Source: a bacterium
GTDB taxonomy: Bacteria > Auribacterota > Tritonobacteria > UBA1439
Direction: 5' to 3'
Assembly (NCBI GenBank): GCA_028716845.1
Contig: JAQUPF010000001.1
Coordinates: 311,590-375,589 of the forward strand
DNA length: 64,000 bases
Made by a program: the position numbers and the translations under genes. The notes under the pieces are model-generated. The model searched no databases. It saw nothing but the letters and a program-made list of their open reading frames with translations, and was not told where the DNA came from. Shown here in pieces: positions 18,830 to 38,465 of this stretch. Within the stretch, counting starts at the first letter, position 1. The number at the start of each line of letters is the position of its first letter.

Positions 18830-19222
18830 ATGGCCCGGAAAACGAAAATACTGGTCGTGGACGACGCGGAGAACATCCGGCGCGCCTTCTCCGGCATGCT
18901 CGAGCTCTCCGGTTATGAGGCCTTCCAGGCGGAGACCGGTGAGGAGGCGATCGAGACAATCGAGCGGGAGGATATCTCGCTCACGCTGATGGACGTCGTC
19001 ATGCCCGGGATGGGGGGCCTCGAGGCGGCGAAGCGGATTCGCGCGATCAGGAAAGACCACCCCGTCATCCTCATGAGCGGCTACGCGGATGACCGCATCG
19101 AAACATCCGGCATGGAGGCCGGGGTGCGCGCATTCCTCAGGAAGCCGTTCGACGGCTCCATCCTCCTCAAAACGATCCGCGGCGAGATCCGCTCGGCCGA
19201 AGCGGTGGAGGCGGCGCGATGA
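18830..19222 (+). CDS. Single-domain response regulator (CheY-like)
   Basis: 130 residues from ATG 18830, preferred over the GTG at 18821 because GGAG is 8 nt upstream. It is a receiver domain only. It has the acidic pair DD (residues 11-12), the phospho-acceptor Asp55 in [11 protein letters not shown], Ser in ILMSGYA and Lys in FLRKPFD. With no output domain it probably acts by protein-protein contact or in a phosphorelay. Its stop overlaps the start of the secreted Pro/Thr-repeat protein (ATGA), an odd coupling of a cytoplasmic receiver with an exported protein. Confidence 0.88.
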
Positions 19223-21566: not shown

Positions 21567-24500
21567 ATGTCCTTCTTCATCATGGTGCTGGTTGCGGCCG
21601 CCGCCTTCGCGGGGACCGCCGCCGCGGCCCCGGCCGACACGATCGTCCTCACATTCGATTTCCTCCCCCCGACGATCGAGGCGGCGGGCGCCTTCTCGCG
21701 CGTGACGATGGGCGACCTGCCGCTCCTCCAGAAGGCGGGCGAGCCGGCGCTGCCGTACCGGCCCGTCCGCGTTCTCATCCCGGACGGCAGGGCGGTCCGT
21801 TCCGTGCGGATCAGGCCGGGGACGCTCATCGGCATCGACGGGCGCCACACGGTCGAGCCTGCGGCCGAGCCCGTCCCGCTGAGTTACAGGGGGCCGCCGA
21901 AGCCGCCGGCGCCGAACAGCGCCGTGTACGCCTCGGGTCGTCCGTATCCCGCCTCCATCGAGACGGGCCGCAGCGCGCAGCGGAAGGGCCCCTATGAGTT
22001 CCTGCTCCTCAATCTCCACCCGGTCGTCTACCTCCCGTCGGAGCGGCGTCTCTCCTACTACGAGCGGCTCACGCTCGAGGTGGCGCTGGAGGACGCGTCG
22101 CCCGGGCGCCGGCCACGGCGGCCCGACACGGAGGAGCGGGATCGGCTGCAGCGGAAGATAGAGAACCCCGAGGCCCTCGAGAGCTACGACGGGGCCGGCA
22201 GCGCGCCGAGGCTCGACGGGGGCGGAGGCCCCCCGGGCGATTTCCCGCACGTCATCATCACGAGCGCCGCGCTCGAGGGCGCCCCCGGCCCCCACAACTT
22301 CCAGGCGCTCCGCGATCACCGGACGGCGCGGGGGATGCCGTCCACGATCGTGACGACGGAATACATCTACGCGAACTTCGACGGGGCGAGGCCCTCGGGG
22401 GGGAGCGACAACCAGACCCGCATCCGCAACTTCATCGCCTGGGCGCACGAGAACTGGGGGACGCGGTACGTCCTCCTCGGCGGCGCCGTCGGGGTCGTTC
22501 CCGCCCGCCTGTTCTACGTGCTGTCGTATCCCGGCGGCTCCACCGCGAACATGCCGGTGGACATGTACTACGGGAACCTCGACGGCACCTTCGACCATGA
22601 CGCGGACGGCGTCTACGGCGAGCCGACCGACGGCCCCGGCGGCGGCGAGGTGGACCTGTACGCGGAGGTGTACATCGGCCGCGCCTGCGTGGAGAACGCG
22701 ACGGAGGTCGCGAACCTCGTCCGGAAGACCATCGCCTACGAGACGTCGACCTCCGATTCCCTCCGGCGGGCCGTGATGGTCGGCGAACACCTCGGCTTCG
22801 GCGGCGTGTCGGAGTACGCGACCGAGTCGATGGAGGAGATCCGGCTCGGCTCCTGCGCGCACGGCTACTGCACGAAGGGGTTCGCCGACGACGAGTTCTT
22901 CCAGACCGAGACGCTCTACGACGCCCCGGGATACTCCTGGCCGAAGAGCGCGCTCGTCTCGATCATGAACGAGGGGGTGCACGTCCTCAACCACCTCGGC
23001 CACGCCAACTACACCTTCGACATGAAGCTGTACACATCGGACCTCCCCTCGCTCGCGAACACCGAGTATTTCTTCATCTACAGCCAGGGGTGCAATCCGG
23101 GCGGCTTCGACACGGCGAACTGCTTCGCGGAGTCCGTCACGACGATGGAGAAGGGGGCGGTCGCCGCCGTGATGAACGCCCGCTACGGGTGGGGGGCGTA
23201 CAACAGCACGGCGGGGCCGTCGCAGTACTACGACCGCGAGTTCTGGGACGCCCTCTTCGGCGAGGGGATACGGGAGCTGGGGCGGATGAACGCCGACTCC
23301 AAGGAGGACAACGACTTCCGGATCAACAACTCGTGCATGCGCTGGTGCCTCTACGAGCTGAACCTGTTCGGCGACCCGGCCGTCCGGATCCAGAACATCT
23401 CGTCCAGGGGGAGGGTGTCGCTCGACGCCGACCGCTACCCCTTGCCGGGCTCCGCGACGGTGACCGTCGTGGACGCCGACCTCGACCTGGACCCGGGCGC
23501 GCCGGACACGGCGACCGCGGAGCTGCGGAGCGCGACGGAGACGGCGGCCGAGATCCTGCTCCTGACGGAGACGGGGCCCTCGACGAAGACGTTCCGCGGC
23601 ACGATCCTCCTCGCCCCGGGGCCGGCGGTCCCGGGCGACGGGATCCTCCAGGCCGCCGACGGCGACGCGCTCACCGCGCGCTACCTCGACGCGGACGACG
23701 GGACGGGGAGCGCCGCGTGGGCCGAGGCCGGGGCGACGGCGGACGCCTCGGGGCCGGCCATCTCGAACATCCAGGCCGCGCCCGCGGCGCTCTCGTGCAC
23801 GCTCACCTTCGGGACGGACGAGCCGGCGACGGCCGTCGTGCGGTACGGGACGGCCGTCCCGCCGGGCGCCGAGGCCCCGTCGGGCACGCTCGCGACCTCC
23901 CACGCCGTCCGGCTCCGGGGCCTCGACCCGGAGACGACCTATTATTTCGAGGTGGTCGCGACCGACGGCGTCGGCAATGCCGGGACCGACGACAACGGCG
24001 GGGCATACCACCAGTTCACGACGCTCGCCGGCGGCGGCATCCTCCTCGTGGACGACGACGAGGGGGATTCGCACGAGACCTATTTCAAGCAGGCCCTGGA
24101 CGCCGCCGGCTACGGCTACGACGCCTGGGACGTGAAGGAGGCGGGGGCGTCTCCCGACGCCGACGACCTCTCGAACTACGGGGTGGTCATCTGGAACTGC
24201 GGCTACAACTACTCCGCCTCGACGGCGGGGCTCACGACGGCCGAGCAGGCGGCACTCGCCTCCTACATGGACGGCGGCGGGCGGGTCTTCCTCTGCGGCC
24301 AGGACATCCTCTACAAAGGGGTGGCCGCCTCCTTCCGGACGAACTACCTGCGCCTCGCCGGCTACTCGAGCGACACGCAGGTGACTCGGGCGATGGGGAT
24401 CGACGGCGACCGGATCTCGGGCGGCATGGACCTCGCCCTCTCCTACCCGTTCACCGACTGGTCGGACACCCTGACGCCCGACTCCTCCTCGTCGCCGGTC

Positions 24501-25331
24501 TTCAGGCGGGGGACGGCGAGCCCCGCCACCTGGTGCGCCGTCCGCCATCCGAAGGACGGCCTGGCCGCGTCGTTCCGGATCGTCTTCTTCGCCTTCCCGT
24601 TCGAGGCGATCCGGCACGATATCGCCGCCCCGAACAACGCCGCGACCGTGATGGACCGCGTCCTCCGGTTCCTCTCGCCCGTCAGGGTCGATGAGGTCTC
24701 CCCGCCGTACGGCCTGAACGACCGGTCGACGGCGGTCGCGATCCGGGGCGCCGGCTTCAGGGCGGATTCGACCGTCACGCTCGGGGGGGCGGCGCTCGGT
24801 GTCGACGCCATGGCCGGCTCCGAGATCGCCGCGACCGTCCCGGCGGGCCTCGCGGCGGGGGCGCACGACCTGGTCGTGCGGAACGCCGATTCGCTGCGGG
24901 GGTCGCTCGACGGCGCGTACACCGCGCTCGCGCCGGGCGGCGACGAGGACGGCGACGGCCTCACGAACGAGGAGGAGATCGTCACGCACGGCACGAACCC
25001 GCTCGACACCGACACCGACGGCGACGGCCTCCCCGATTCCGACGAGATCCTCGTCCACGGCACGGATCCGCTCAATCCCGACACCGACGGCGACGGCCTC
25101 CCCGACGGGGAGGAGATCGCCCGCGGCACGTCCCCGTTCCTCCCCGACACCGACGGCGACGGCGTCCCCGACTTCATCGAGGTCACGCTCGGGAGCGACC
25201 CGCTCGACCCCGCGTCCGTCCCCGGCGCCTACTGCGTGAACTTCCAGCCGCCGCAGGCCGACCCCTATCCCGGCTTTATCCCCGAGGCGGGCGCCCCGTT
25301 CGGCCCCCGCGGCTGCGGTTGGACCGAGTGA
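21567..25331 (+). CDS. Gingipain-type (C25) cysteine peptidase, large secreted multidomain protein
   Basis: 1254 residues from ATG 21567; GGGGAGG abuts this ATG, so ATG 21582 is an alternative. After a signal peptide and a propeptide (GDLPLLQKAGEPALPYRPV) comes the C25 peptidase domain. His in HVLNHLGHANY (about 475-480) and Cys in YSQGCNPGG (about 508) form the expected catalytic dyad. Then follow an FN3-like domain (about 725-820), a ThuA/GATase-like Rossmann segment (ILLVDDDEGD, about 828), an IPT/TIG domain (about 1030-1120) and four type-3 calcium repeats (DTDGDGLPD). The tail VNFQP...RGCGWTE ends the protein. Likely role: a secreted or surface protease. It heads a run of genes sharing the same tail. 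Confidence 0.88.
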   Translation: MSFFIMVLVAAAAFAGTAAAAPADTIVLTFDFLPPTIEAAGAFSRVTMGDLPLLQKAGEPALPYRPVRVLIPDGRAVRSVRIRPGTLIGIDGRHTVEPAAEPVPLSYRGPPKPPAPNSAVYASGRPYPASIETGRSAQRKGPYEFLLLNLHPVVYLPSERRLSYYERLTLEVALEDASPGRRPRRPDTEERDRLQRKIENPEALESYDGAGSAPRLDGGGGPPGDFPHVIITSAALEGAPGPHNFQALRDHRTARGMPSTIVTTEYIYANFDGARPSGGSDNQTRIRNFIAWAHENWGTRYVLLGGAVGVVPARLFYVLSYPGGSTANMPVDMYYGNLDGTFDHDADGVYGEPTDGPGGGEVDLYAEVYIGRACVENATEVANLVRKTIAYETSTSDSLRRAVMVGEHLGFGGVSEYATESMEEIRLGSCAHGYCTKGFADDEFFQTETLYDAPGYSWPKSALVSIMNEGVHVLNHLGHANYTFDMKLYTSDLPSLANTEYFFIYSQGCNPGGFDTANCFAESVTTMEKGAVAAVMNARYGWGAYNSTAGPSQYYDREFWDALFGEGIRELGRMNADSKEDNDFRINNSCMRWCLYELNLFGDPAVRIQNISSRGRVSLDADRYPLPGSATVTVVDADLDLDPGAPDTATAELRSATETAAEILLLTETGPSTKTFRGTILLAPGPAVPGDGILQAADGDALTARYLDADDGTGSAAWAEAGATADASGPAISNIQAAPAALSCTLTFGTDEPATAVVRYGTAVPPGAEAPSGTLATSHAVRLRGLDPETTYYFEVVATDGVGNAGTDDNGGAYHQFTTLAGGGILLVDDDEGDSHETYFKQALDAAGYGYDAWDVKEAGASPDADDLSNYGVVIWNCGYNYSASTAGLTTAEQAALASYMDGGGRVFLCGQDILYKGVAASFRTNYLRLAGYSSDTQVTRAMGIDGDRISGGMDLALSYPFTDWSDTLTPDSSSSPVFRRGTASPATWCAVRHPKDGLAASFRIVFFAFPFEAIRHDIAAPNNAATVMDRVLRFLSPVRVDEVSPPYGLNDRSTAVAIRGAGFRADSTVTLGGAALGVDAMAGSEIAATVPAGLAAGAHDLVVRNADSLRGSLDGAYTALAPGGDEDGDGLTNEEEIVTHGTNPLDTDTDGDGLPDSDEILVHGTDPLNPDTDGDGLPDGEEIARGTSPFLPDTDGDGVPDFIEVTLGSDPLDPASVPGAYCVNFQPPQADPYPGFIPEAGAPFGPRGCGWTE

Positions 25332-25403
25332 GGCGGTGACGGTGGAAGGGCTTTCCTTACAATCAAGTCATAATTCCATGACAACTCCCCGGCGGGGAGG
25401 TGC

Positions 25404-25439
25404 GATGCTTTTCCCGGCACAGCGGAGGGAACCGGCGTG
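25404..25439 (+). other. Possible 11-codon leader ORF before the MBL-fold gene
   Basis: GGAGGTGCGATG starts an 11-codon frame whose TGA (25437-25439) overlaps the GTG start of the next gene (GTGA). The leader carries the ribosome site of that gene (CGGAGGG) inside it. It may couple translation. There is no evidence of a functional peptide. Confidence 0.3.
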
Positions 25440-26726
25440 AGACCCCTGGCACGGTGCGCGGCGCTCCTGGCCGCCGCGGCGATCCTCGCGGCGACATGGG
25501 CCGCCGCCGGGGAGCTCGAGATCCACGTCATCGACGTCGGCCAGGGGGCGAGCGAGCTCGTCATCGGCCCCAACGGGACGACGATCCTCATCGACGGGGG
25601 GACGAGCACGATGGGCCGAAACAGGGTTCTCCCCTACCTGAACGCGATCTTTCCTCCCGGCGGGCGGCGGCTCGACTACATGATCTGCTCCCACGACCAC
25701 GCCGACCACTACGGCGGGCTCCTCTCCCTCCTCGCGAGCGGCTACTCGGCCGACACCATCTACCACTGCGGGGCAAACGCGAGCTTCGGCCGCGGCGTTC
25801 CCATCGCCGTCGGCACGGTCATCGACCTCGGGGACGGCGCCATCGCCACCTGCGTCGCCGCCAACGGCCTTTTCATCGACGGCACCTACGTGGCGCCGAC
25901 GAGCGACAAGAACACGCGGAGCATCGCCATGCTCCTCCAGTACGGCGGCTTCGACTACCTCACCGCCGGCGACATGCCCGACAGCCGCGAGCGCCGGCTC
26001 GCCGATGCCCTCGTCAAGTATGTCAATCCCCCCTCACACCCCCACCACCCGGACCGGCCGTACCTCGACCCGGAGACGGGGGTGGACGTCCTCCACGTCA
26101 ACCACCACGGCTCGAAGTACAGCTCGTCGGCCTACTACGTCAATGCGATGCGGCCCGAGCTGGCCCTCATCAACGGCGGCGACGGCTACGGCCACCCCAC
26201 CTCGCAGGCGGTCGACCGGCTCCTCGGCAGGCCGTTCTACACGATCGCGTGCTCGTGCAGCTCCGACTGCGGCAGGGCGACCGGCGTCACCGTCCCCGGG
26301 GCCCTCGTCTTCCGGACGACGGCCGCCTCCTACGACTGCCGGCGGGCGATCGAGGCCGACTGCCCGACGATCGGGAACATCGTCGTCATCACCGACGGCA
26401 TGGCCGACTACACCGTCGAGGGGACATCCATGCCGCCCATCCGCCTGGCGCTCGACCAGTTGTCCCCGGACCAGGACACCGACGGCGACGGCCTCACCAA
26501 CGCACAGGAGTTCCTGTACGGCACCGACCCGCTCGACCCGGACACCGACGGCGACGGCGTCTCCGACTACGTCGAGGTCATGTCCGGGAGCGACCCGCTC
26601 GACCCGGCGTCAGTCCCCCACGTCCTCCACTTCACCTTCCAGCCTTGGGGCCTCGCGGCGCCCCCGGCGACCGTCCCCGACTCCGGCCAGTCCTATGCCG
26701 GCACCCGCGGCTTCGGCTGGCAATAG
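25437..26726 (+). CDS. Secreted metallo-beta-lactamase-fold hydrolase with type-3 repeats and FQP-GW tail
   Basis: 429 residues from GTG 25437, with GGAGGG 9 nt upstream. After a signal peptide (about 1-24) the protein matches the soluble ComEC/Rec2-like MBL domain: [19 protein letters not shown], the metal motif [10 protein letters not shown] (about 84-93), a second metal ligand in TAGD and [13 protein letters not shown] near 215-227. No ComEC membrane channel is present. The substrate is unknown; related domains are nucleases or phosphodiesterases. Two type-3 repeats and the tail HFTFQP...RGFGWQ finish the protein. It is probably exported and attached or sorted like its neighbours. Confidence 0.82.
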
Positions 26727-26744
26727 CGCCCCGCCGGCGGCGGA

Positions 26745-26870
26745 ACAATGAACCCCGAGCCGCGGATTGAAACGGATTCTTACGGATATTCACGGATTCG
26801 ACCTCAACCGTATCGGTGGAAATCCGTAATCATCAGTGGAAATCCGTGGTGGATTCGTACGTTGTCTCCG
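26745..26870 (+). repeat. CGGAT-phased intergenic repeat (family X, copy 1)
   Basis: CGGAT words start at 26763, 26773, 26783 and 26793, exactly 10 bp apart, followed by ATCCGTAATCATCAGTGG and AATCCGTGGTGGATTCGT. The two halves have opposite polarity (CGGAT, then ATCCG), so the unit can form an imperfect hairpin. Near-identical copies lie at 29110, 38248 and 40857 (same strand) and 31930 (inverted). Confidence 0.85.
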
Positions 26871-26938
26871 CCATAACTTAATTCGCCTGGTTCCGCGTGC
26901 ATGGACGGGAATTATCGGGTATAGTGGACACGGATCAC

Positions 26939-28774
26939 ATGTCCTCCCGCATGCTGTGCCGCATCGCCCCGGCGGTTGTCGCGGGCGTTTTCCTCCTGCA
27001 CGCCGGCGCCGTCCGCGCCGCGCCTCCCGCGTACGCCCCCGACAGGATAATCCTCAAACTCAGGGACGTCCCGCCGGGCCTCGACGCGGCCCTGCGGAGC
27101 GGCGGCGCGGCGCCCCTCCTCGGCATTCCGGCGCTCGACCGGATCGGCGAGCGCCTCGGGGCGAGGGCCGTGCGGCCACTCTTCCGGGCGCCCGCCCCGG
27201 CCGGCAAGGTCGACACGGCCGGCCTCTCGCGCATCCTCATCGTCGACCTCCCGCCGGGGACCGACATCCCGGCGGCGTGCCGCGATTACGCCCGCGACCC
27301 GGCCGTCGAGTACGCGGAGCCGGATTACGTGGCGCACGGCGGGGCACGCATCCCCGACGACCCGTCGTTCCCGCTCCAATGGGGGATGCGCAACACCGGC
27401 CAGACCGGGGGAACGCCCGGCGCCGACATCAGCGCGACGGCCGCGTGGGAATGGCAGACGGGGAGCGCCGACATCATCGTCGCGGTCGTCGATTCCGGCT
27501 CCGACTTCGACCATCCCGACCTCGCCGGGAGATTCCGGGCGAATCCAGGCGAAACCCCCGGGAGCGGGACGGACGACGACGGGAACGGCTTCGTCGACGA
27601 CGTGTACGGCTGGGACTTCGTCAACGACGACAACTGGCCGCAGGACGACCACGGCCACGGGACGCACGTCGCCGGCATCGCCGCGGCCGGGACGGACAAC
27701 GGCACCGGGGTGGCGGGCGTGGCCTGGGGGTGCCCGATCATGACCGTGAAGGTCCTGAACAGCGGCAACTGGGGATACTGGAGCTGGATCGAGAACGGGA
27801 TGCGCTACGCCGTCGACAACGGCGCCCGTGCGATCAACCTGAGCATCGGGGGCTACTCCCCCTCCTCATCCCTCGAGGACACCGTGAACTACGTTCACGC
27901 CAACGGCGGCATCCTGCTCGTCGCCACCCACAATTACGGCGGCGCGATCACGTACCCCGCGAAATACGACAACGTCATCGCCGTCGGCGCCACCGATCAC
28001 GACGACCAGCGCTGGAGCTCCTCGAACTACGGCCCCGAACTGGACGTCGTCGCGCCCGGCGTCTCCATCCACAGCACGCTCTGGAACGACACCTACGCGA
28101 GCTGGAGCGGGACGTCCATGGCCGCCCCCCACGTCACCGGCGTGGCGGCCCTCCTTCTCTCGGTCCGGGCGGACCTGACGTTCGAGCGGGTCAAGCAGCT
28201 GCTCGAGTCCACCGCCGCCGACGAGGTCGGGAGGCCTTCGGAGGATACCCCCGGCTGGGACCAGTACATGGGCTGGGGGAGGATCGACGCCTCCCGGGCG
28301 CTCCAGGCACTCGACGAGGATGCCGACGGCATGCCGGACGCATGGGAGGCATACTACGGCCTCGATCCGTACTCAGACGACACGGCCGGGGACCTGGACG
28401 GGGACGGCCTCACCAATCTCGAGGAGTACCTGCTCGGCACCAACCCGGCGGATCCCGACACCGACGGCGACGGCCTCTCCGATTCCGACGAGATCCTCGT
28501 CCACTTCACGGATCCGCTCGATCCCGACACCGACGGCGACGGCCTCACGGACGGGGAGGAGATCGACCGCGGCACCGATCCGCTCGCCCCCGACACCGAC
28601 GGCGACGGCGTCTCCGACGGCCTCGAGGTCATGTTCGGGAGCGACCCGCTCGACCCGGCCTCGCACCCCTCCGTCATCCGCGTCAGCTTCCAGCCGGAAG
28701 CGGCGCGGGCATCCGGCGACTTCGCCGCCGACGGGGGCCTCACCTTCGACGCGCGCGGCTTCGGCTGGTGGTAG
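26939..28774 (+). CDS. Subtilisin-like (S8) peptidase with type-3 repeats and FQP-GW tail
   Basis: 611 residues from ATG 26939; in-frame GTG 26924 and ATG 26897 are alternatives, and no start has a strong ribosome site. Signal peptide about 1-27; an I9-like pro-region (about 40-120, ending VEYAEPDYVAHG). The catalytic domain has Asp in VVDSGSDFDHPDL (about 184), His in GHGTHVAGIAA (about 240) and Ser in SGTSMAAPHVTG (about 391). Four type-3 calcium repeats (EDADGMPD... DTDGDGVSD) and the tail VSFQP...RGFGWW complete the protein. Expected to be a secreted, calcium-stabilised endopeptidase. It resembles the S8 gene at 55840, which has a different C-terminal module. Confidence 0.9.
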   Translation: MSSRMLCRIAPAVVAGVFLLHAGAVRAAPPAYAPDRIILKLRDVPPGLDAALRSGGAAPLLGIPALDRIGERLGARAVRPLFRAPAPAGKVDTAGLSRILIVDLPPGTDIPAACRDYARDPAVEYAEPDYVAHGGARIPDDPSFPLQWGMRNTGQTGGTPGADISATAAWEWQTGSADIIVAVVDSGSDFDHPDLAGRFRANPGETPGSGTDDDGNGFVDDVYGWDFVNDDNWPQDDHGHGTHVAGIAAAGTDNGTGVAGVAWGCPIMTVKVLNSGNWGYWSWIENGMRYAVDNGARAINLSIGGYSPSSSLEDTVNYVHANGGILLVATHNYGGAITYPAKYDNVIAVGATDHDDQRWSSSNYGPELDVVAPGVSIHSTLWNDTYASWSGTSMAAPHVTGVAALLLSVRADLTFERVKQLLESTAADEVGRPSEDTPGWDQYMGWGRIDASRALQALDEDADGMPDAWEAYYGLDPYSDDTAGDLDGDGLTNLEEYLLGTNPADPDTDGDGLSDSDEILVHFTDPLDPDTDGDGLTDGEEIDRGTDPLAPDTDGDGVSDGLEVMFGSDPLDPASHPSVIRVSFQPEAARASGDFAADGGLTFDARGFGWW

Positions 28775-28802
28775 CGCCCCGCCGGCATGATGAGAACAAA
28801 CC

Positions 28803-29009
28803 AGCCGCGGCGGAACAATGAACCACGAGCCGCGGATCTCCACGGATCATTGACGGATTGTCACGGATTGGATTGCAGTAGATACAGGGTTCCGGCCGCG
28901 GATTGACGCAGATACAACCGGCCACAGAGGGCACAGAGAACACGGAGGACAGTGCTGCTTTCGACTTTGAACGTACAACTTTGAACTGTAGTTGTTCTCT
29001 GTGATCTCC
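28803..29009 (+). repeat. 207-bp repeat, inverted near-identical copy of 8918-9123
   Basis: Carries GCCGCGGCGGAACAATG, ATTGACGGATTGTCACGG, GGATTGCAGTAGATACAGGG, module A (CACAGAGGGCACAGAG), module B and TTCTCTGTGATCTCC in that order. The first 98 bp match 12260-12358. The 90 bp that follow (29010-29100) have no recognisable feature. Confidence 0.85.
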
Positions 29010-29109
29010 GTGGCGAAAAGAGAGAGCTGCTATTCACGTTCATCCGCGGCGGAAGCACTGTTCCCCAACGCAGTCGGTTCCAGTCGCATTAGCGAAAATC
29101 CGCGGAACA

Positions 29110-29225
29110 CACAATGAACTCCGCACCACGGATGCGCGCGGATTCTTACGGATATTCACGGATTCGACCTCAACCGTATCGGTGGAAATCCGTAATCATC
29201 AGTGGAAATCCGCGGTGGATTCGTT
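29110..29225 (+). repeat. CGGAT-phased intergenic repeat (family X, copy 2)
   Basis: CGGAT at 29129, 29139, 29149 and 29159, again in exact 10-bp steps. The segment 29142-29222 is almost identical to 26776-26856. Confidence 0.85.
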
Positions 29226-29255
29226 CCTTGTGTCCGCGGCCGGTCCCGGCGGGCA

Positions 29256-29285
29256 TTGACATGCGCCATGCCGTTCCGATATAGT
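29256..29285 (+). promoter_or_regulatory. Predicted sigma-70 type promoter
   Basis: TTGACA (29256-29261) and TATAGT (29280-29285), 18 bp apart, about 53 bp before the ATG at 29339. Confidence 0.65.
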
Positions 29286-29338
29286 ATGCGCCACCCCCGG
29301 CCGGAGTTCGGGCGCGGGGGAAAGGCGACGGGTGGCAC

Positions 29339-29584
29339 ATGCCGTTCACGGGAAAACAGCGGGACATCCTTAAACTCATGCGCAACACCGTGCGGAGCTA
29401 CCAGACGCTCAGCATCGGAAGCGCTCACGGCCTCCAGCGCCTGGCGAAGGATTACTTCGACATCGAGATCGACATCCAGCCGACGATCGAGGCGGTCCGG
29501 AGCCGGCGGGGCGACCTGATCTACGCCGAGCTCGCCCGGCTCCAGGGGATCATCGGCGAGATCGAGAAGCGGGGCGCGCGATGA
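29339..29584 (+). CDS. Small alpha-helical protein of unknown function, coupled to glycosyltransferase
   Basis: 81 residues, MPFTGKQRDILKLMRNT..., predicted mostly helical, with no signal peptide, membrane segment or metal motif. I do not recognise the family. It is preceded by a good promoter (29256-29285), and its stop overlaps the start of the glycosyltransferase by 4 nt (ATGA). It is therefore probably real and co-translated. Its ribosome site is weak (GGGTGG). It could modulate the transferase, but the sequence does not show how. Confidence 0.6.
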   Translation: MPFTGKQRDILKLMRNTVRSYQTLSIGSAHGLQRLAKDYFDIEIDIQPTIEAVRSRRGDLIYAELARLQGIIGEIEKRGAR

Positions 29585-30342: not shown

Positions 30343-31843
30343 AGCGGCGCGCCTCCCGCTCCGGGAAATGCCCCTCCAGGAACGCCTCGATCTCCCGGTC
30401 GCCGTGGCCGCGGGTGTCATCCCCGACGAGGAGCCAGACCCGCTCCCGCCCCGCCGTGTAGCGGCGGAGCGTCTCCGCGAGGTCGTACCGGTCGCACTCC
30501 GCGATGCCGACCTGGCGCAGCCCCCCCCGGTAGTAGATGTTGAGCGGGATCATGTGGCCCGCGATGTTGACGAGGACGAGGTCGCCCCGCCGCTCGCCCG
30601 CGGCGATGACGGCCGCGGCGGCGCGGAAATCCGGCTTCGAGTGGTCGTTGTCGAAGACGCCGGGATAGAAGGGGAACGGGGCGGCGGCGAGGGAGACGGC
30701 GCAGACGGCCGCCGCGAGGAGCGCCCGCGCCCACGCCCCGCGGAGCGCCCAGACGGCTCCCGCCGCGAGGAGCAGGACGCCCGACGCCTCCCACATGTGG
30801 TACCGGGGCTTCATGTACCAGAGCGTCCACCTGAGGGCGCCGAAGGCGGCGATCACGCCGAGCGGGACGAGGAGGAGGAGGAGCGCGAAGGCGACCGCGC
30901 GCCCCTTTCCCCGCCGGACGAGGCGGACGGAGCCCGCCGCGAGGAGGGCGGCGAGACCCCCCCCGACCGCGCGCCGGACGCCGTCGCCGACGATCTCCCT
31001 GCTGTACATGGGGCCGAGGACGAGCGAGTCCGCGATGTACCGCAGGCCGGCGAGCGTCGCCCGGATGAACGCCCCCGCCTCCGCGGGGCCCGGCGGCGCG
31101 TACCCGCTCGAGACGGCGAGCTGTTTCCCGAAGGCGAGGGCGAGCCAGGGGAGGCAGAGCCCCGCCGCCGCGGCCATGCTCAGCGCGAACGGCCGGAGGC
31201 GCGCGCGCGCGAAGACGAGGACGTAGAGGGCGTGTGCGGCGAGGACGAGAGCGGCGAAGTAGAAGCTGTAGCAAACGAGGAGCGCCGCGGCCGCGTAGGC
31301 CGCCCACGGTCCCGCCCCCCGCTCCGCGTCGAGGGCCCGGAGGAGCAGCCAGGAGGCGGCGACGGCCGCGCAGTTCGCCATCATGTAGGCGCGCGCCTCC
31401 TGCGAGAAGTAGATGTTGAGCGGGGAGACGGCGAGGAAGAGCGCCGCGAGGAGGGCGGGCACGGGGTCCCCGAACAGGCGGCGGCCGAGGAGGTAGAAGA
31501 GCGGCACGGCGAGGACACCGAGGACGGCGGAGAGCGAGCGGACGGCGAGGTCGCTCCCCCCGAACGCCTTCATCCATGCCGCGAGGGCGAGGAAGTAGGC
31601 GGGGGGCGTCCCCTCGTTCCGGACGCAGGCGCGCACGATGGCGCGGAGCGAGGGGCGGGGGTTCACGAACCGCCGGTGCGTCGCGTCCACGAGCGAGGCG
31701 GTCATGAAGTGCATGTCCACGCCCCGGGCATCGTAGACGGAGAACGCCTCGTCGCCCCAGAGGCCCTGGTGCGTGATGCCGGAGAAGCGCAGGCCGGCGG
31801 CGAGGGCGGTGACGAGGATGAGCGCGATCCGTTCCCGGTACAT
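30281..31843 (-). CDS. GT39/PMT-like membrane glycosyltransferase
   Basis: 520 residues with about 11-12 hydrophobic segments. The first periplasmic loop has the family motif GLWGDEAFS (about 27-35), with the acidic residue used in catalysis. FSQEARAYM (about 155-163) is the second conserved loop. These match the GT-C fold ArnT/PMT-like enzymes that use a polyprenyl-phosphate sugar as donor on the outer face of the inner membrane. The convergent, overlapping polyprenol-P-mannose synthase is the natural donor-making partner. The acceptor (lipid A, glycan or protein) cannot be told. An upstream promoter is predicted at 31870-31899. Confidence 0.8.
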   Translation of the reverse strand: MYRERIALILVTALAAGLRFSGITHQGLWGDEAFSVYDARGVDMHFMTASLVDATHRRFVNPRPSLRAIVRACVRNEGTPPAYFLALAAWMKAFGGSDLAVRSLSAVLGVLAVPLFYLLGRRLFGDPVPALLAALFLAVSPLNIYFSQEARAYMMANCAAVAASWLLLRALDAERGAGPWAAYAAAALLVCYSFYFAALVLAAHALYVLVFARARLRPFALSMAAAAGLCLPWLALAFGKQLAVSSGYAPPGPAEAGAFIRATLAGLRYIADSLVLGPMYSREIVGDGVRRAVGGGLAALLAAGSVRLVRRGKGRAVAFALLLLLVPLGVIAAFGALRWTLWYMKPRYHMWEASGVLLLAAGAVWALRGAWARALLAAAVCAVSLAAAPFPFYPGVFDNDHSKPDFRAAAAVIAAGERRGDLVLVNIAGHMIPLNIYYRGGLRQVGIAECDRYDLAETLRRYTAGRERVWLLVGDDTRGHGDREIEAFLEGHFPEREARRFRKLALALYARGGTVNGPGR

Positions 31844-31869
31844 GGCGGCCTCCGCGGCGGGACGGGGAT

Positions 31870-31899
31870 ATGCTAGCAGGGAGGCGGCCCGCCCAACAA
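31870..31899 (-). promoter_or_regulatory. Predicted promoter of the GT39-like gene
   Basis: Minus strand TTGTTG (31894-31899) and TAGCAT (31870-31875), 18 bp apart; the -10 ends about 26 bp before the ATG. Confidence 0.4.
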
Positions 31900-31929
31900 C
31901 GGGAAACGGCGGCCGCGTCCGTCGCGGAG

Positions 31930-32150
31930 AGCCGAAGCACCTCTTTCAAAGAGCCAATCCACCACGGATGCGCACGGATGATTACGGATTTCCACCGATA
32001 CGATTGAAGTCGGATCCGTGAGTATCCGTACGAATCCGTTTCAATCCGCGGCTCGTGGTTCATCGTTCTGCTGCGGCTCGTGCGATATACGAAGTGCGAA
32101 GGACGAACGACGAACTGCATTTTCAGGATCCGTGTTCGTCCATGGCCGAA
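31930..32150 (-). repeat. Family X repeat (inverted) joined to module C
   Basis: 31930-32062 is the reverse complement of 40858-40991, including the flanking AGCCGAAGCACCTCTTTCAA word, with few differences. It continues into module C (ATACGAAGTGCGAAGGACGA, about 32087-32106). No gene is seen in the 393-bp gap. Confidence 0.85.
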
Positions 32151-32212
32151 TGGCCGTTTTTTCGCCTGGTGACACGCCTGTGATTATCATGTGCGGATCG
32201 GTGAAGCGGTGG

Positions 32213-32218
32213 TACAAT
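32213..32218 (+). promoter_or_regulatory. -10 element before the first GH26-like gene
   Basis: TACAAT is followed 7 nt later by AGGAGGTGG, the strongest ribosome site in the window. No good -35 was seen. Confidence 0.4.
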
Positions 32219-32236
32219 GTATTTTAGGAGGTGGAC

Positions 32237-33580
32237 ATGTACATGCGCGCACTTGCTTCCGCTCTTCTCGCCGCGGCGATCGCCGCGGGCCCGGCACGGG
32301 GGGCCGTTTCCCTGGGGGTCTTTCTCGACGGCGCCCCCGACGCTCAGATAACGGGCCTCTTCGGCGCCACCCGCCCGCACGCCATCGTGCAGTACGCGCT
32401 GGTGTGGGCGTACTCGAACGCCGGCTCGCACACCGAGCTGATGAACAGGGTCCGCGGCAGGAACGCCACGCCGATGTGCGTCTGGGGCTCCGGCTGGGAG
32501 CGCAACCTGAACGACATCGCGAACGGCGCGCACGATGCGTACATCACGGGCATCGCGAACGCGGTGCGCGACTTCGGTCACCCGGTCATCCTCGCCTTCA
32601 ACGCGGAGTTCAACCTCACGACGAACCCCTACAACGCGAGCCATTACGGGAATGATGCCGGCGCTTACATCGCGGCGTGGAGGCATGTGGTCGACCGCTT
32701 CAGGGCAGCGGGCGCGACGAACGCGCAGTGGGCCTGGTGCCCGAACTACGCGTCGAATCCCCCCGCGTCCTGGAATCAGCCGGAGAACTACTATCCCGGC
32801 GACGAGTACGTGGACTGGCTCGGGACGCTCGGGTTCGACTGCAACTGGGCCGGCGGCGGCGGCACCGCGAACCTTTCATTCAACGATCTCTTCGGCCCCA
32901 TTCTCTCCTCCATGGCATCCCTCAAGCCCGATAAGCCGCAGATCGTGATGTGGTTCGCCACGGCGGGGAGCGCCGCGCAGAAGCCGGCGTGGATCCAGTC
33001 GAGCTACGGCTCGATGGCGAACTACCCGAACCTCCGGGCGGTGGTCTGGTACAACAAGAGGGACGATGCCCCCGCGAACGCCGATTACCGCGTCTGGGAC
33101 ACCGCCGGCGTGCAGGCGTCGGTGACGAACGCCTACAGGAACGCGATATCGGCCCCGCTCTTCCTCACCACCCTCCCCCCCTACGACGAGCTCGTCCCGA
33201 ACGGCAATGGGAACGGGGGCGGCGGCACGCTCGCCATCACGCCGTCGCCCGTGACGGTCTGGAGGGGCGACACGCTCAGCATCGGCTGGGCGTTCCAGGG
33301 GATCACGCAGCGCGTGGACGCCTACCTGCGCGTGACGACGCCCGAGGATGACCTCTACTACATGGACGCGAGGCAGCAATTCAACCTCCGCGTCGCGCCC
33401 GTCGCCTCCAACTACAACGTGAGCGGCAACCCCTCCGGCACGCTCCGGTTCACGGTCCCGCGGAACATCTCCGCCGGCGATTACACCTTCGAGGCGATGT
33501 GCGTCCCCGCGGGGCGCTCCGTCGCGGATCCGGCGAACTGGATCGGCGGGGCGGACGAGGATGTCGTCCAGGTCCGATAG
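32237..33580 (+). CDS. GH26-like secreted protein, copy 1 (nucleophile position changed)
   Basis: 447 residues from ATG 32237, 5 nt after AGGAGG. Signal peptide about 1-21. The domain resembles the GH26 (beta-mannanase) TIM barrel. VILAFNAEFN (about 115-124) aligns with the acid/base block IRWAHEPN of copy 2, keeping the Glu but losing the preceding His. WAWCPN and YYPGDEYVDWLG follow. At the nucleophile block, where copy 2 has GKPQGIFEFGS, this copy has DKPQIVMWFATAGS, so the Glu position is Trp in my alignment. A linker and a beta-rich C-terminal domain (about 330-447) end the protein. Possibly a carbohydrate-binding, non-hydrolytic member. Confidence 0.72.
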   Translation: MYMRALASALLAAAIAAGPARGAVSLGVFLDGAPDAQITGLFGATRPHAIVQYALVWAYSNAGSHTELMNRVRGRNATPMCVWGSGWERNLNDIANGAHDAYITGIANAVRDFGHPVILAFNAEFNLTTNPYNASHYGNDAGAYIAAWRHVVDRFRAAGATNAQWAWCPNYASNPPASWNQPENYYPGDEYVDWLGTLGFDCNWAGGGGTANLSFNDLFGPILSSMASLKPDKPQIVMWFATAGSAAQKPAWIQSSYGSMANYPNLRAVVWYNKRDDAPANADYRVWDTAGVQASVTNAYRNAISAPLFLTTLPPYDELVPNGNGNGGGGTLAITPSPVTVWRGDTLSIGWAFQGITQRVDAYLRVTTPEDDLYYMDARQQFNLRVAPVASNYNVSGNPSGTLRFTVPRNISAGDYTFEAMCVPAGRSVADPANWIGGADEDVVQVR

Positions 33581-33614
33581 CCCTCCGGCCGGTCTTCAGC
33601 CGCGCGCGGCGCCG

Positions 33615-35237
33615 ATGATGATTTATTCAGGTATCTTCCGCGGGACCGCCGCGCTGCTCTCCCTCGCCGCCGCGCTCCTTTCTCCGTCCCTCTCCGCCGC
33701 CCCCGAGCGGCCGGGGATCATGCTCGGCGCCTTCATCCCCGCCACGTGGGAATACGACGAGGACATCGAGGCGTTCGACGAGGCGGCAGGAAGATCCCAC
33801 ACCCACATCATGATCTTCTGCCATTTCAAGTACGATTTCTGGGAGGGGCCGTTCCTCCTCGAGAAGGTGGGCGAGAAGGAAAAGAGCCCCGTCATCTGCT
33901 GGCAGTCGGGTGACATCGAGGGGAGGCCGCACCCCGACTACTCCAACGCGAGTTTCATTAGGGGTGAACACGATGCGGTCATAAAGGACATGGCCCAGCA
34001 GGTGAAGCGGTTCATAGACCGGTTCGGCCTTCCGGTCTACATCCGCTGGGCGCACGAGCCGAACATCAAGAGCTCCCCCGCCTGGCCCGGCCACAAATGG
34101 AACAACCGGAGCGTGGAGGAGTACATCCAGATGTTCCGCCATGTCCACACGGTCTTTCACAAGGAACTGGACGAGGCGACGCGGGAGAAGGTTGTCTGGA
34201 CCTGGTCAGTGAACTACTTCGGCTCGAGGGAGGGCCTCGACACCTACAGCGACTGGAAGCGCCTCTACCCGGGCGACGACTTCGTGGACATGACCGGCCT
34301 GAGCGGCCTGAACTACGGCGACCACCCCACCGCGGGCCCCCGATTCCCCGTCACCGTCCAGTGGCTCTACCTCCCGATCCTCCGCGACATGATGGCCGGC
34401 GAGTACGGGGGCGGCGTCCCGCTCCGCGACATGGCGCGACTGACCGGCGGCAAGCCGCAGGGCATCTTCGAGTTCGGCAGCGTGGACAACGGGCCCTCGT
34501 ACGCGGGAGAGCTCGCGCGGTCGATGCCGGAGTACTTCTCGGCGATCCCGAAGGCGGACTGGATACGGCAGGGGTACGACGCCCTCGCGAATACGGAGGA
34601 GTTCGCCTTCGTCCGCCTCGTCCTCTGGTACAACGACATCGCGACGAGCGACGACGTGCTCTCCGACTACCGCGTCTCCCGGAACCCGAACAGAAAGGGT
34701 GAGGGCGAGGTGCCGGAACACGTCACGCGCGCCTACCGGGAGGCGATCCGCGATCCGGTCTTCCTCGACGCCCCCCTGACACTCGAGGAGATGACGCCCG
34801 GCGGATTCCACCGCGCGCGATCCATGCCGGTGCCGAGGACCTATCCGCAGCACGAGTTCTGGCCGAGCGTCCGCGACGGCGGGACGCTCCGCCGCGGCGA
34901 GACGCTCTCGGCCGCCTACTTCCTCCATCCGCCCTCGGCGGGGGGACGGTCCCGCTGCGACGCCTACGTCGCCGCCCGGCTGCCGGCGGGCGACCTGTTC
35001 GCCTTCGTCCCCCCCTCCAGATGGATCCCGTTCACGCTCAGCGGCGGTTCCGTCCCCGCCGCCCGGAAGGGCCTGGACGTCACCGGGGAGTCACGCGGGA
35101 TGGCCTTCGTGATGCGGCCCGGCGAGGGCCTCCCGTCCGGCTCGTACACCATCTACTCGATCCTCGTCCCGCCCGGCGCGGATCCGAGGGGCGGCGGGCC
35201 CGACCTGCGCGAATCCCGCTTCTCCCTCGCCGACTGA
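33615..35237 (+). CDS. GH26-like secreted glycoside hydrolase, copy 2 (both catalytic Glu present)
   Basis: 540 residues from ATG 33615 (MMIYSGIF...); 34 bp separate it from copy 1. Signal peptide about 1-29. The barrel begins PGIMLGAFIPATWEYDEDIEAFDE. The acid/base Glu lies in YIRWAHEPNIKSSPAWPGHKWN (about 138-158), WTWSVNYF and LYPGDDFVDMTGLSG follow, and the nucleophile Glu is in GKPQGIFEFGS (about 279-289). It is therefore the one copy of the three that looks fully catalytic. GH26 enzymes cleave beta-mannans or mixed beta-glucans. A C-terminal beta domain (about 410-540) with SGSYTIYSILVPPG is shared with copy 3. The ribosome site is poor. Confidence 0.8.
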   Translation: MMIYSGIFRGTAALLSLAAALLSPSLSAAPERPGIMLGAFIPATWEYDEDIEAFDEAAGRSHTHIMIFCHFKYDFWEGPFLLEKVGEKEKSPVICWQSGDIEGRPHPDYSNASFIRGEHDAVIKDMAQQVKRFIDRFGLPVYIRWAHEPNIKSSPAWPGHKWNNRSVEEYIQMFRHVHTVFHKELDEATREKVVWTWSVNYFGSREGLDTYSDWKRLYPGDDFVDMTGLSGLNYGDHPTAGPRFPVTVQWLYLPILRDMMAGEYGGGVPLRDMARLTGGKPQGIFEFGSVDNGPSYAGELARSMPEYFSAIPKADWIRQGYDALANTEEFAFVRLVLWYNDIATSDDVLSDYRVSRNPNRKGEGEVPEHVTRAYREAIRDPVFLDAPLTLEEMTPGGFHRARSMPVPRTYPQHEFWPSVRDGGTLRRGETLSAAYFLHPPSAGGRSRCDAYVAARLPAGDLFAFVPPSRWIPFTLSGGSVPAARKGLDVTGESRGMAFVMRPGEGLPSGSYTIYSILVPPGADPRGGGPDLRESRFSLAD

Positions 35238-35293
35238 TCCCCTCACCCGCGCTGCTGGCGCCGCCGCACAGGCGGTGCTATATTACGTTTGGA

Positions 35294-36889
35294 ATGAACG
35301 CGATGAGACCGATCCGCACGCTCCTCATGCCGGCGATTCTCCTCGCCGCGGGCGGCCCGGTCCGGGCGGAGGCGCCCGCCGGCCATCCCGGCATCATGCT
35401 CGGCGCATTCATACCGGCGGTGAACGGAGACGGAAAATACCGGGAATCGATCAAGGCGTTCGACGACGCCACGGGGAAACGGCACACGCACGTCATGATG
35501 TACTGCAACTTCACGTTCGACATCGACGCGTATCCGCATCTCGTCCGGCAGATTGTCGACGCCGGGAAGGTGCCGATCATCACCTGGCAGTCGGGGAACG
35601 AGATGGGGGGGGCCGATCCCCGTTATTCCAACGAGAGCTTCGTCAGGGGGGCGCACGACGCCGTCATCGATAAAATGGCGGAGCGGTGCGCGGAATTGCG
35701 TGAAACAATCTACATGCGCTGGGCGCACGAGATGAACATCAGGAGCGCCCCGGCGTGGCCGGGGCACGAATGGAACAGGGAGAGCCCCGACGATTTCATA
35801 CAGATGTGGCGGCACGTGCACGCGCGGTTCCGTAATAAGAAGGCGACGAACGTGAAATGGATCTGGTCGGTCAACTACGAGAGCTCGCCGGAATGGTTCA
35901 GCGACTACAACGTCCTCTACCCCGGCGACGATTACGTGGACATGATCGGCGTGAGCGGCCTGAACTACGGGAACCACCCCAACGCCGGGCCCCGCTTTCC
36001 CGTCACCGTCCAGTGGCTCTACCTGCCCCCGATGCGCGACCTCATGGCCGGGAGCTACGCCGCAGAGGACGCCGCGCGGACGCACCGCCGCCTCGCCGCG
36101 CTGGGCGGCGGCAAGCCGCAGGGATCGTTCAGCATCGGCACCGTCGGCGCGCCGTGGGAGACGACGGTGCCGGGCGGCTCGACCTCCTCCATCCCGAAGG
36201 CGGACTGGATCCTGCAGGGCTACGACGCCCTCGCCCACATGGAGGAATTCGGTTTCGTCAGGCTCCTCGTCTGGTACAACGACATCGCGACGAGCGGCGG
36301 GATCCCCTCCGATTTCCGCGCGGCCCGAAACCCCGGCAGGAGCGAGCCCCCCGTGCCCCCGCACATCACGGAGGCGTACGCCCGGGCGATCAGCGATCCG
36401 GTCTTCATCGAGGAGGAGCTCTCGTTCGAGGATATGGACCCGGGGCCGTTCCGCGAGGCGTCCTCGCTCGTCACGCCGGCCGACTACCCGCAGCACGAGT
36501 TCATGCTCGACGTGCGCCGCGGGGGAACGGTGCGGGCGGGAGGGAGCGTCTCGGGCGCCTATTTCCTCGTTCCGGCGATCGACACGGGCCCGCTCAACTG
36601 GGACACGGACGCCTACATCGTCGCGCGGTTGCCGAACGGCGAGTATTACGCCTTCATCCCGCCCGCGGCGTGGCGGCGCTTCGACCCGAACCTCGGCCCG
36701 CCGCCACCGACGGTGCGCCGGTTCAGCGTGAAGCGGCCCTCCCGCGGCATGGCCTTCGCCCAGCGGCTCGGCGCGGGGCTGCCCGGGGGCGAGTACACGG
36801 TCTATTCGGTCCTCGTGAAGCCCGGGACGGACCCGAGGGAGCCGGGGCAGCCCGATCTCAGGACGACCGCCTTCACCCTTTCGGATTGA
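35294..36889 (+). CDS. GH26-like secreted protein, copy 3 (nucleophile Glu replaced by Ser)
   Basis: 531 residues from ATG 35294 (or ATG 35303), with TATATT 10-15 bp upstream. Signal peptide about 1-25. It is the closest paralogue of copy 2. The acid/base block is intact (YMRWAHEMNIRSAPAWPGHEWN, about 140-160), as are LYPGDDYVDMIGVSGLNYG and GPRFPVTVQWLYLP. The nucleophile block reads GKPQGSFSIGT, with Ser where copy 2 has Glu. Retaining hydrolysis by the GH26 mechanism would not be expected. The C-terminal domain ends GEYTVYSVLVKPGTDP. It may bind glycans or act as a decoy or scaffold, and the small lipoprotein gene follows 7 bp later. Confidence 0.75.
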   Translation: MNAMRPIRTLLMPAILLAAGGPVRAEAPAGHPGIMLGAFIPAVNGDGKYRESIKAFDDATGKRHTHVMMYCNFTFDIDAYPHLVRQIVDAGKVPIITWQSGNEMGGADPRYSNESFVRGAHDAVIDKMAERCAELRETIYMRWAHEMNIRSAPAWPGHEWNRESPDDFIQMWRHVHARFRNKKATNVKWIWSVNYESSPEWFSDYNVLYPGDDYVDMIGVSGLNYGNHPNAGPRFPVTVQWLYLPPMRDLMAGSYAAEDAARTHRRLAALGGGKPQGSFSIGTVGAPWETTVPGGSTSSIPKADWILQGYDALAHMEEFGFVRLLVWYNDIATSGGIPSDFRAARNPGRSEPPVPPHITEAYARAISDPVFIEEELSFEDMDPGPFREASSLVTPADYPQHEFMLDVRRGGTVRAGGSVSGAYFLVPAIDTGPLNWDTDAYIVARLPNGEYYAFIPPAAWRRFDPNLGPPPPTVRRFSVKRPSRGMAFAQRLGAGLPGGEYTVYSVLVKPGTDPREPGQPDLRTTAFTLSD

Positions 36890-36896
36890 GCGGACG

Positions 36897-37133
36897 ATGA
36901 GAGCGATCGCCGTTTTCCTCGCGGCGTGCCTGCTGGCCGTCGCCGTCGCCTCGTGCGTCCAGGTTACGACCGCCCGGCGGGCGGAGACGGTCGCCCGCAC
37001 CGAGGAGGGGGAGGAGGCGCGCCGCTCCGAGGTCGTCGTGCGGACCTGGGGCTGGGACCTCCTCGGAGGCCTCCTCAAGGCGCTCTTCTTCCCGTTCAAG
37101 GTCCTCGGGAAGGCGGTGGACGCGATCACCTGA
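36897..37133 (+). CDS. Small lipoprotein of unknown function
   Basis: 78 residues. The signal sequence ends in a lipobox (AVASC, Cys20), so the mature protein should be a lipid-anchored peptide of about 59 residues. It has a charged middle (TARRAETVARTEEGEEARR) and an amphipathic or hydrophobic C-terminal helix (WDLLGGLLKALFFPFKVLGKAVDAI). No family is recognised. It starts 7 bp after GH26-like copy 3 and is probably co-transcribed with it. Confidence 0.7.
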   Translation: MRAIAVFLAACLLAVAVASCVQVTTARRAETVARTEEGEEARRSEVVVRTWGWDLLGGLLKALFFPFKVLGKAVDAIT

Positions 37134-37149
37134 GGCCCCCGGCATTGCC

Positions 37150-38232
37150 ATGACGCCGATCGGGACACGCATGGAAATGCAGTCGGCGCTGGTCGCGCTG
37201 CTGCTCCCCTGCGCCGCCCTGGCGGCTGATCCGTGGCCGGGGGGCCCGGGGACCGACATCGGCGGCAACCTCCCCTCCCCGTGCGAGCCGAGCGGCGTCG
37301 TCTGGCACACGCGCCTCGAGCGGCTGTTCGTCGCGAGCGACGACGGCCGGGTCATCCGGATGGACGCCGACGGGAACGGCGTGACATCCCGGTCGCCCGG
37401 GGGCGACATCGAGGGGATCGCGGTCGCCGACGCGGACACCGATTACATCTACCTCGGCATCGAGCACCCCGACTCGATCAGGGAGTTCGACGTGGCGGAG
37501 GGGGCGCTGACGGGGAAGTCGTGGGACCTCACCCCCTGGATGCAGAGCGCGAGCAGCAACCTCGGCCTCGAGGCGCTCACCTTCATCCCGAACGGCCACC
37601 ACCCATATGCCGACGGCGGCTCGGGCGGCCTTTTCTACGCGGGCCTCCAGGAGGACGGGAGGATCTACGTCTTCGACGTGGACCTCTCGACCGGCGGCGC
37701 CGTGTCGCACGTCGACGTGATCACGCCCGTCGCGGGCAGGGCCGACCTCTCCGGCCTCCACTACGCGACGGAGACCCGGACGCTCTACGCGGTGTTCGAC
37801 GGTTCAAGCCGGATCCGCGAGATGACCGCGGGCGGGTCGTTCATCGCCGAGTATGAGCTGCCGGGGAGCGGCCAGGAGGGGGTGACGGTGGTCCCGTCAT
37901 GCCCCTCCGGATCGGCGGCGGTCTCCATCGCCGAGGACTCCGGCGGTGTCGTCCGGTACGACGGCTACCCGGTCGCGTGCGCCGACGTCGACGCCGACGG
38001 CCTGTCCGACGTCGAGGAGGCCCTCCTCGGGACGGATCCCGACTCGCCGGACACCGACGGCGACGGCTTCAGCGATTCGATCGAGCATTTCTGCGGGAGC
38101 GACCCGCTCCTCGAGACGAGCGTTCCCGACCCGCTCGCCGTCAACTTCCAGCCCGGCGCCGCCCGCATCCCCGCCCGCCACTGCCCCGACGCGGGCGCCG
38201 CCTTCTCCCCGCGCGGCCACGGCTGGCTGTAG
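37150..38232 (+). CDS. SdiA-regulated/phytase-like beta-propeller with type-3 repeats and FQP-GW tail
   Basis: 360 residues from ATG 37150; ATG 37171 is a plausible alternative giving a cleaner signal peptide (ALVALLLPCAALAA). The propeller part (about 30-275) shows the pattern of the SdiA-regulated (YjiK) family: PSGVVWHTRLERLFVASDDG, DIEGIAVADADTDYIYLGIE, LGLEALTFIPNG, DLSGLHYATETRTLYAVFD and QEGVTVV. Two type-3 calcium repeats (DVDADGLSD, DTDGDGFSD) and the tail VNFQP...RGHGWL follow. Such propellers bind or hydrolyse small ligands; no catalytic set is evident. Its C-terminus is built like those of the C25, MBL and S8 proteins 10-15 kb upstream. Confidence 0.75.
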   Translation: MTPIGTRMEMQSALVALLLPCAALAADPWPGGPGTDIGGNLPSPCEPSGVVWHTRLERLFVASDDGRVIRMDADGNGVTSRSPGGDIEGIAVADADTDYIYLGIEHPDSIREFDVAEGALTGKSWDLTPWMQSASSNLGLEALTFIPNGHHPYADGGSGGLFYAGLQEDGRIYVFDVDLSTGGAVSHVDVITPVAGRADLSGLHYATETRTLYAVFDGSSRIREMTAGGSFIAEYELPGSGQEGVTVVPSCPSGSAAVSIAEDSGGVVRYDGYPVACADVDADGLSDVEEALLGTDPDSPDTDGDGFSDSIEHFCGSDPLLETSVPDPLAVNFQPGAARIPARHCPDAGAAFSPRGHGWL

Positions 38233-38247
38233 GCCCCCCGGCGGAAC

Positions 38248-38360
38248 GATGAACCCCGAGCCACGGATTGAAACGGATCAGTACGGATACTCACGGATCC
38301 GACCTCAAGCATATCAGTGGGAATCCGTAATCATCCGTGAAAATCCGCGGTGGATTGTTT
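38248..38360 (+). repeat. CGGAT-phased intergenic repeat (family X, copy 3)
   Basis: CGGAT at 38264, 38274, 38284 and 38294, then AATCCGTAATCATCCGTG and AATCCGCGGTGGATTG. TATAAT at 38423-38428 just beyond may be the -10 of the following ATP-grasp gene; no clear -35 was found. Confidence 0.85.
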
Positions 38361-38465
38361 CTTCAGTCGGCGGATGAGGCGCGCGTCTTCACTTCGCGCT
38401 GGCGCGCGGCGCGTCGCGCGTTTATAATCGTTACCGGCCGTGCCACGGATGCGAGGCGGACGCGC

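Follow-up and report, generated by a model that had tools for sequence, protein, structure and literature searches.

A C-terminal tail common to diverse exported bacterial proteins as the probable plug of a split galactose-binding-like domain

Results

Five proteins of the window end in related tails

The window, a stretch of 64,000 nucleotides from the genome designated G000 (compared here with genomes G001–G006, G024, G026, G234 and G374), carries five forward-strand genes whose products end in related sequences. Profile matches placed the tail at 25227..25322 in a C25 peptidase (FQP..GCGW; gene 21567–25331; tail at G000:C1:336816-336911), at 26625..26720 in an MBL-fold hydrolase (FQP..GFGW; gene 25437–26726), at 28673..28768 in an S8 peptidase (FQP..GFGW; gene about 26939–28774) and at 38131..38226 in a propeller of the phytase/SdiA-regulated type (FQP..GHGW; gene 37150–38232). 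Translation confirmed the preliminary description, in which these four proteins end in a common FQP..GW pattern: the C25 peptidase terminates in ...YCVNFQPPQADPYPGFIPEAGAPFGPRGCGWTE, the S8 peptidase in ...RVSFQPEAARASGDFAADGGLTFDARGFGWW and the SdiA/phytase-like propeller in ...AVNFQPGAARIPARHCPDAGAAFSPRGHGWL, each followed directly by the stop codon. The fifth protein, with Pro/Thr repeats and a PPC domain (gene 19219–21291), had been credited with a diverged form of the pattern (ITFEP..VFGP..YGW; 21172..21279; G000:C1:332761-332868). It was indeed matched by an iterated profile with an E-value of 1.7e-11, the tail being itself one of the 20 rows of that profile.

Upstream of the tails, the Pfam scan of the window proteins recognized Peptidase_C25, Lactamase_B, Peptidase_S8, Phytase-like/SdiA-regulated and PPC domains as well as TSP3_bac repeats, and assigned no family to the tails. 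TSP3 calcium repeats lie ahead of the C25 protein tail (24941..25210, forward strand), and similar repeats precede the other three FQP-type tails. DNA comparison showed that the TSP3 and tail DNA is similar among the window genes, i.e. a copied cassette, which partly accounts for how closely the window tails resemble one another. A frameshifted complete domain behind the stop codon was ruled out, as none of the three forward frames 3′ of the five stops encodes a continuation or domain remainder.

Several other features of the window were recorded. Tandem GH26-like paralogues without tails (33561–35237 and 35021–36889), with stretches of about 80% DNA identity, adjoin the tail cluster. Intergenic repeats of ∼90–127 nt, rich in ACGGAT/ATCCGT, occur at 26745–26871, 29111–29237, 31960–32051 and 38246–38372; two copies directly follow genes for tailed proteins, and a third follows such a gene at a distance of a few hundred bases. 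Further downstream, a DUF5122 propeller (53051–55780) and an S8 peptidase (55777–57771) look exported and are tail-less, and share another C-terminal region of ∼90 residues; not every exported protein therefore uses the tail system.

The tail is widespread in four genomes and ends at a fixed point

A first profile built from the four FQP-type window tails found more copies in G000, the best with an E-value of 1e-8; iteration raised the number to 23 at E < 1e-3, well above anything expected by chance. Among 59 genomes searched as relatives, three were rich in tails, namely G003 and G005, which belong to the same family, and G006 from another family of the class. The numbers of C-terminal tails were 23 in G000, 21 in G003, 11 in G005 and 37 in G006. 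Only these four of 384 genomes had multiple terminal tails; elsewhere copies were few and lay inside complete domains, as do both copies in G374, and 38 other genomes of the phylum gave no match to the tail profile.

The tail is ∼33 residues long, with the consensus R-[IV]-N-F-Q-P ... P-x-G-Y-x-x-D-x-G-x-x-Y ... Y-G-W. In 88 of the 92 tails from the four genomes the chain ends 0–4 residues past the Gly-Trp, most commonly after exactly one, so that the proposed stop at the Trp holds and most copies do not continue beyond it. TSP3 repeats, said to stand directly before the tail, do so in the four window cases; genome-wide they precede it in 19 of 71 carriers and are missing from the remaining 52, and so do not belong to the signal.

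Carriers of the tail matched 37 Pfam families. The 25 commonest, which are the families listed, include GDSL lipases, C25, S8 and C1 peptidases, GH9, GH18, PQQ and other propellers, MBL, exo/endonuclease-like and PLD-like domains. The claim that carriers are exported was borne out by a simple scan, which detected a signal-peptide-like N-terminus in 69 of the 76 carriers whose 5′ ends are intact, versus 2 of 22 cytoplasmic-type controls; of the other seven carriers, three are anti-sigma factors that sit in the membrane and have the tail beyond it. The SdiA/phytase-like homologues of G003, G005 and G006 likewise end in the tail, while that of G024, a genome without tails, lies within a longer protein and has none, a comparison that agrees, if thinly, with a tail system.

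The module is not strictly C-terminal. A 369-residue protein of G006 (L085, contig C45) has FQP..YGW at its mature N-terminus, after the signal peptide and ahead of an unrelated domain, and one protein each in G000 (L026) and G003 (L103) has the module before further sequence. In the G000 case (L026/L136, G000:C5:86972-87079), the chain has TSP3-like repeats, a degenerate tail (DIGP..RGYGW) and then what seems to be a glucose/sorbosone dehydrogenase-like domain, which looks like a fusion across the tail.

The tail corresponds to the opening segment of a galactose-binding-like domain

Non-terminal matches in G002, G026, G234, G374 and other genomes run on into a beta-rich domain of ∼115 residues. 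Aligned with a profile of the N-terminal segments of such complete domains, the tail profile gave an hhalign probability of 99.1 (E 8e-19, 44% identity), and the two represent essentially a single family. The complete-domain profile in turn matched the N-terminal domain of Bacillus subtilis YxiM (PDB 2o14) with an E-value of 9e-6, and in this alignment the tail part pairs with the N-terminal segment of YxiM that ends in GYGF. PF21254 (AGA-YXIM_GBD) gave weak matches, below its cut-off, to some complete copies and to one receptor half (see below). Both parts of the PF21254/YxiM-type pattern, FxFGP..GYG and the core WEI.LPNG.Y.V..GD / DG.L.., exist here on separate chains. Judged by these sequence comparisons, the tail is the first ∼33 residues, from the FQP strand to the Gly-Trp, of a galactose-binding-like domain (GBD) of the YxiM/agarase type, and not itself a domain. 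The likeness to the opening strand of malectin-like domains suggested in the preliminary description was thus close, the profiles placing the tail at the start of a galactose-binding-like domain. A complete domain copy is also fused to the C-terminus of an apparent multi-TM protein in G003 (L149, contig C44), and G005 has a similar complete copy that includes its own segment (L150, contig C86).

The remainder of the domain is encoded beside a tailed anti-sigma factor

In all four tail genomes, genes for an ECF sigma factor, an anti-sigma factor and a signal-peptide protein, here named the receptor for its proposed role, follow one another in this order. In G000 they lie at C4:42362-42961, C4:43009-43578 and C4:43660-45096 respectively (locus L127, C4:36000-46000), and the operon is flanked by glycosyltransferase genes. 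The G000 sigma factor matches Sigma70_r2/r4 (PF04542/PF08281). In all four genomes the anti-sigma factor has one TM helix and its C-terminal tail outside the cytoplasmic membrane, that of G003 ending in ...LLLHVQFQPGEAGGMVSGGNARQEGVLRYGWK, so that the operon combines an ECF sigma factor with a single-TM partner. A Pfam scan of the G000, G005 and G006 anti-sigma factors found zf-HC2 in the latter two and detected none in the first.

Directly after the signal peptide, the first domain of each receptor consists of the ∼115-residue remainder; it is encoded at G000:C4:43738-44100 and G003:C37:91807-92142 in these two genomes. When the receptor domains were aligned with complete domains, the part deleted from them was precisely the FQP..GW segment with its following linker, and the mature N-terminus of the receptors coincided with the cut. 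Receptor first domains that lack precisely the tail segment have, as far as their sequences go, the make-up of an acceptor in donor-strand complementation. This domain is also the best conserved part of the protein; between G000 and G003, 68 of 116 residues (59%) are identical, versus 126 of 322 (39%) in the rest. The remainder profile had a single match in the whole of G000, adjoining the tailed anti-sigma gene, and matched 14 of 384 genomes. The other 19 remainder copies inspected all have the opening segment upstream in the same chain, leaving the four receptors as the only ones without it.

The receptors differ in their downstream regions, which are repeated and unclassified in G000 and G003. 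The G005 and G006 proteins have a large, modular build, in which complete GBD copies (three in G005), TSP3 and Golvesin_C (four matches in G006) are among the domains.

Tail and receptor occur in the same genomes

Multiple terminal tails and the segment-less receptor, which is present once in each genome, were found in the same four of 44 genomes of the phylum. By counting alone, with kinship ignored, such a coincidence has a chance of 1 in 135,751. Profile searches found neither tails nor remainder in G001 and G004, which belong to the same family. G002 and G026 have one fused copy each, and the other 38 genomes of the phylum have neither part. The co-occurrence rests on few independent events, because the system is seen only in four MAGs of one class. 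The preliminary description asked whether the tail co-occurs with one processing or transport gene; it does co-occur with a single partner locus, where the best candidate partner is a secreted protein with the complementary half, not a protease or transporter.

The tail differs from known C-terminal sorting signals

The tails contain no hydrophobic helix of the PEP-CTERM kind, and with their end 0–4 residues after the Gly-Trp both the TM helix and the basic end are absent. Among 64 tails, no NCBIfam family matched and Pfam gave single weak matches only. Exosortase (PF09721) was rejected as a partner, being present in G005 and G006 and absent from G000 and G003, which are 95–96% complete; the genes in question are L290 (G005, contig C158) and L289 (G006, contig C39), and these two organisms may therefore run two sorting systems in parallel. 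The SprA/Sov model TIGR04189 was unmatched in seven genomes and equally in the control genomes. Neither tails nor receptors had a Pfam match to dockerin EF-hand repeats or a cohesin domain (25 commonest of the 37 carrier families listed). The preliminary description was right in seeing a conserved C-terminus on diverse exported proteins, as expected of a sorting or anchoring signal; its comparison with cleaved, membrane-embedded CTERM signals was not borne out, given the exosortase distribution and the lack of an NCBIfam CTERM match.

Discussion

Overall, the sequence data are best explained by a naturally split beta-sandwich whose tail piece acts as a plug and docks many exported proteins on one receptor, an explanation that we consider probable; docking through a split domain, taken as such, is at least as likely. 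Client proteins would be exported via Sec, and their tails would insert in the receptor's incomplete domain and finish its fold, as in donor-strand complementation, with one receptor docking 10–40 different exported proteins. Since the complete domains are natural fusions of both parts, the separated parts are predicted to bind each other by the usual fusion argument. The receptor's other domains would hold the clients in or on cell-surface glycan, the glycans concerned being presumably products of the flanking glycosyltransferases; anchoring of docked clients at the surface has in our view an even chance of being correct. The tailed anti-sigma factor would compete for the same socket and report whether the receptor is free or saturated, whereupon expression would be adjusted and supply balanced. 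Occupancy sensing of this kind is a tentative proposal that we rate just short of even. The full scheme, in which a receptor with an incomplete GBD takes the ∼33-residue plug from 10–40 exported proteins and a plugged anti-sigma factor gauges occupancy, all beside a surface-glycan cluster, might equally prove right or wrong. Since the downstream architectures vary by genome, the common role of the receptor's remaining part may lie at the surface, in a matrix or in the periplasm. The regions upstream of the receptor genes appear sigma-70-like and, by eye, share no ECF motif, and hence lend no help to the sensing model.

In one variant of the split-domain reading, the receptor would work as a chaperone or carrier in the periplasm, covering the tails of clients while they are exported and then passing the clients on, similar to chaperone-usher systems. 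A single receptor gene per genome for 10–40 clients would suit this role, and anti-sigma/ECF pairs are a common device for watching periplasmic folding load. However, the G005 and G006 receptors have the size and modularity typical of surface or matrix proteins, and we regard such a carrier as unlikely, if well worth considering.

Alternatively, the tail could be a secretion or sorting signal, possibly cleaved, for a dedicated outer-membrane or membrane-embedded machine resembling those of T9SS, PEP-CTERM or MYXO-CTERM proteins, and its likeness to the first strand of a domain would then reflect the origin of the tail and not its working. The extreme C-terminal position on diverse exported carriers would fit, as would the lineage restriction, the many-to-one distribution and the operon among glycan genes, all reminiscent of PEP-CTERM/EpsH, where many short C-termini share one partner in a glycan neighbourhood (PMC1569441). 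Yet the tails have no TM helix or basic end and match no NCBIfam model, G000 and G003 are without exosortase, and one carrier has the module N-terminally. Above all, a sorting signal leaves unexplained why the complementary half exists in exactly these genomes, beside an anti-sigma factor with the same tail. We therefore think this alternative improbable. A docking plug fits the tail better than a processing signal does, and non-terminal copies such as L085 suit it better too.

Very improbable, in our judgement, is that the tails are decaying remnants of complete C-terminal GBD domains, or a ligand-binding mini-domain. Complete domains that begin with a homologous segment do occur in the same phylum, but some 90 carriers keep the FQP and Asp-x-Gly and end no more than four residues after the same Gly-Trp, where decay would give varied ends; nor is there a remainder 3′ of the five window genes, and a piece this short, taken from a fold of several strands, would hardly fold on its own. 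Finally, the idea that the window pattern is a duplicated TSP3 cassette of no wider meaning draws on the similarity of TSP3 and tail DNA between window genes and is refuted by the genome-wide copies, by tails of the same profile on the 52 TSP3-free carriers and by those of relatives, including another family of the class.

The proposed split domain can be set against several known systems. T9SS CTDs are complete sandwiches of ∼80 residues recognized by PorU/PorV; like the tail they are C-terminal, beta-type targeting modules on diverse secreted proteins, but the tail has only ∼33 residues. SpyTag/SpyCatcher, which is engineered and covalent, also divides a domain, giving a short tag strand and its acceptor, whereas the present split is natural and presumably non-covalent. 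Tail and receptor half together align over nearly the full PF21254/YxiM domain (2o14), a remote match that stays below the Pfam cut-off; unlike that domain, which is one polypeptide, the version here has its first segment distributed over many proteins and its remainder on a single other protein.

Donor-strand complementation is known from chaperone-usher pili and from the Mfa/Fim fimbriae of Bacteroidetes; in Mfa fimbriae, a precedent for the proposed docking, a C-terminal strand fills an empty beta position (PMC5789003). Here, too, an incomplete beta-sandwich would be completed by a strand of another exported protein, but the proposed donor, a C-terminal module of ∼33 residues, belongs to unrelated enzymes rather than to pilin subunits, and no usher or pilin polymerization is seen. 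In the cohesin–dockerin system, many enzymes dock on one receptor through the same module, and RsgI anti-sigma factors carry an extracellular carbohydrate-binding module (PMC12484212), a precedent for the sensing step in that anti-sigma factor and secreted enzymes have extracytoplasmic modules of one kind. The dockerin, however, is a complete Ca-binding fold and the cohesin a complete domain, whereas each partner here contains only a portion of a single domain. PEP-CTERM/exosortase (PMC1569441), GlyGly-CTERM/rhombosortase (PMC3237569) and MYXO-CTERM/myxosortase (PMC11980579) resemble the tail in that many exported proteins of a lineage end in a short conserved sequence, in the many-to-one pairing with a partner gene and, for PEP-CTERM, in the link to a glycan locus; the tail differs in having no TM helix, basic end, membrane protease partner or exosortase co-occurrence.

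We found no description of such a tail in the open-licence literature searched, and no system is known in which a split domain serves to tag a whole secretome, although donor-strand exchange and dockerins offer precedents for the logic. Because the tail is absent from the curated family libraries searched, nothing in the present annotation of its carriers hints that they share a destination. Peptide-tag/acceptor pairs could be drawn in large number from a natural split beta-sandwich for which dozens of tags have evolved. Since many tags would go with one acceptor, and the sigma/anti-sigma pair seems tied to the tag as well, both the anchoring and the regulation of the secretome could be tested directly with two small protein pieces. 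If our reading is true, these bacteria would have a new way to sort or anchor a whole exported set, in which a fold is cut in two and one piece serves as a universal tag.
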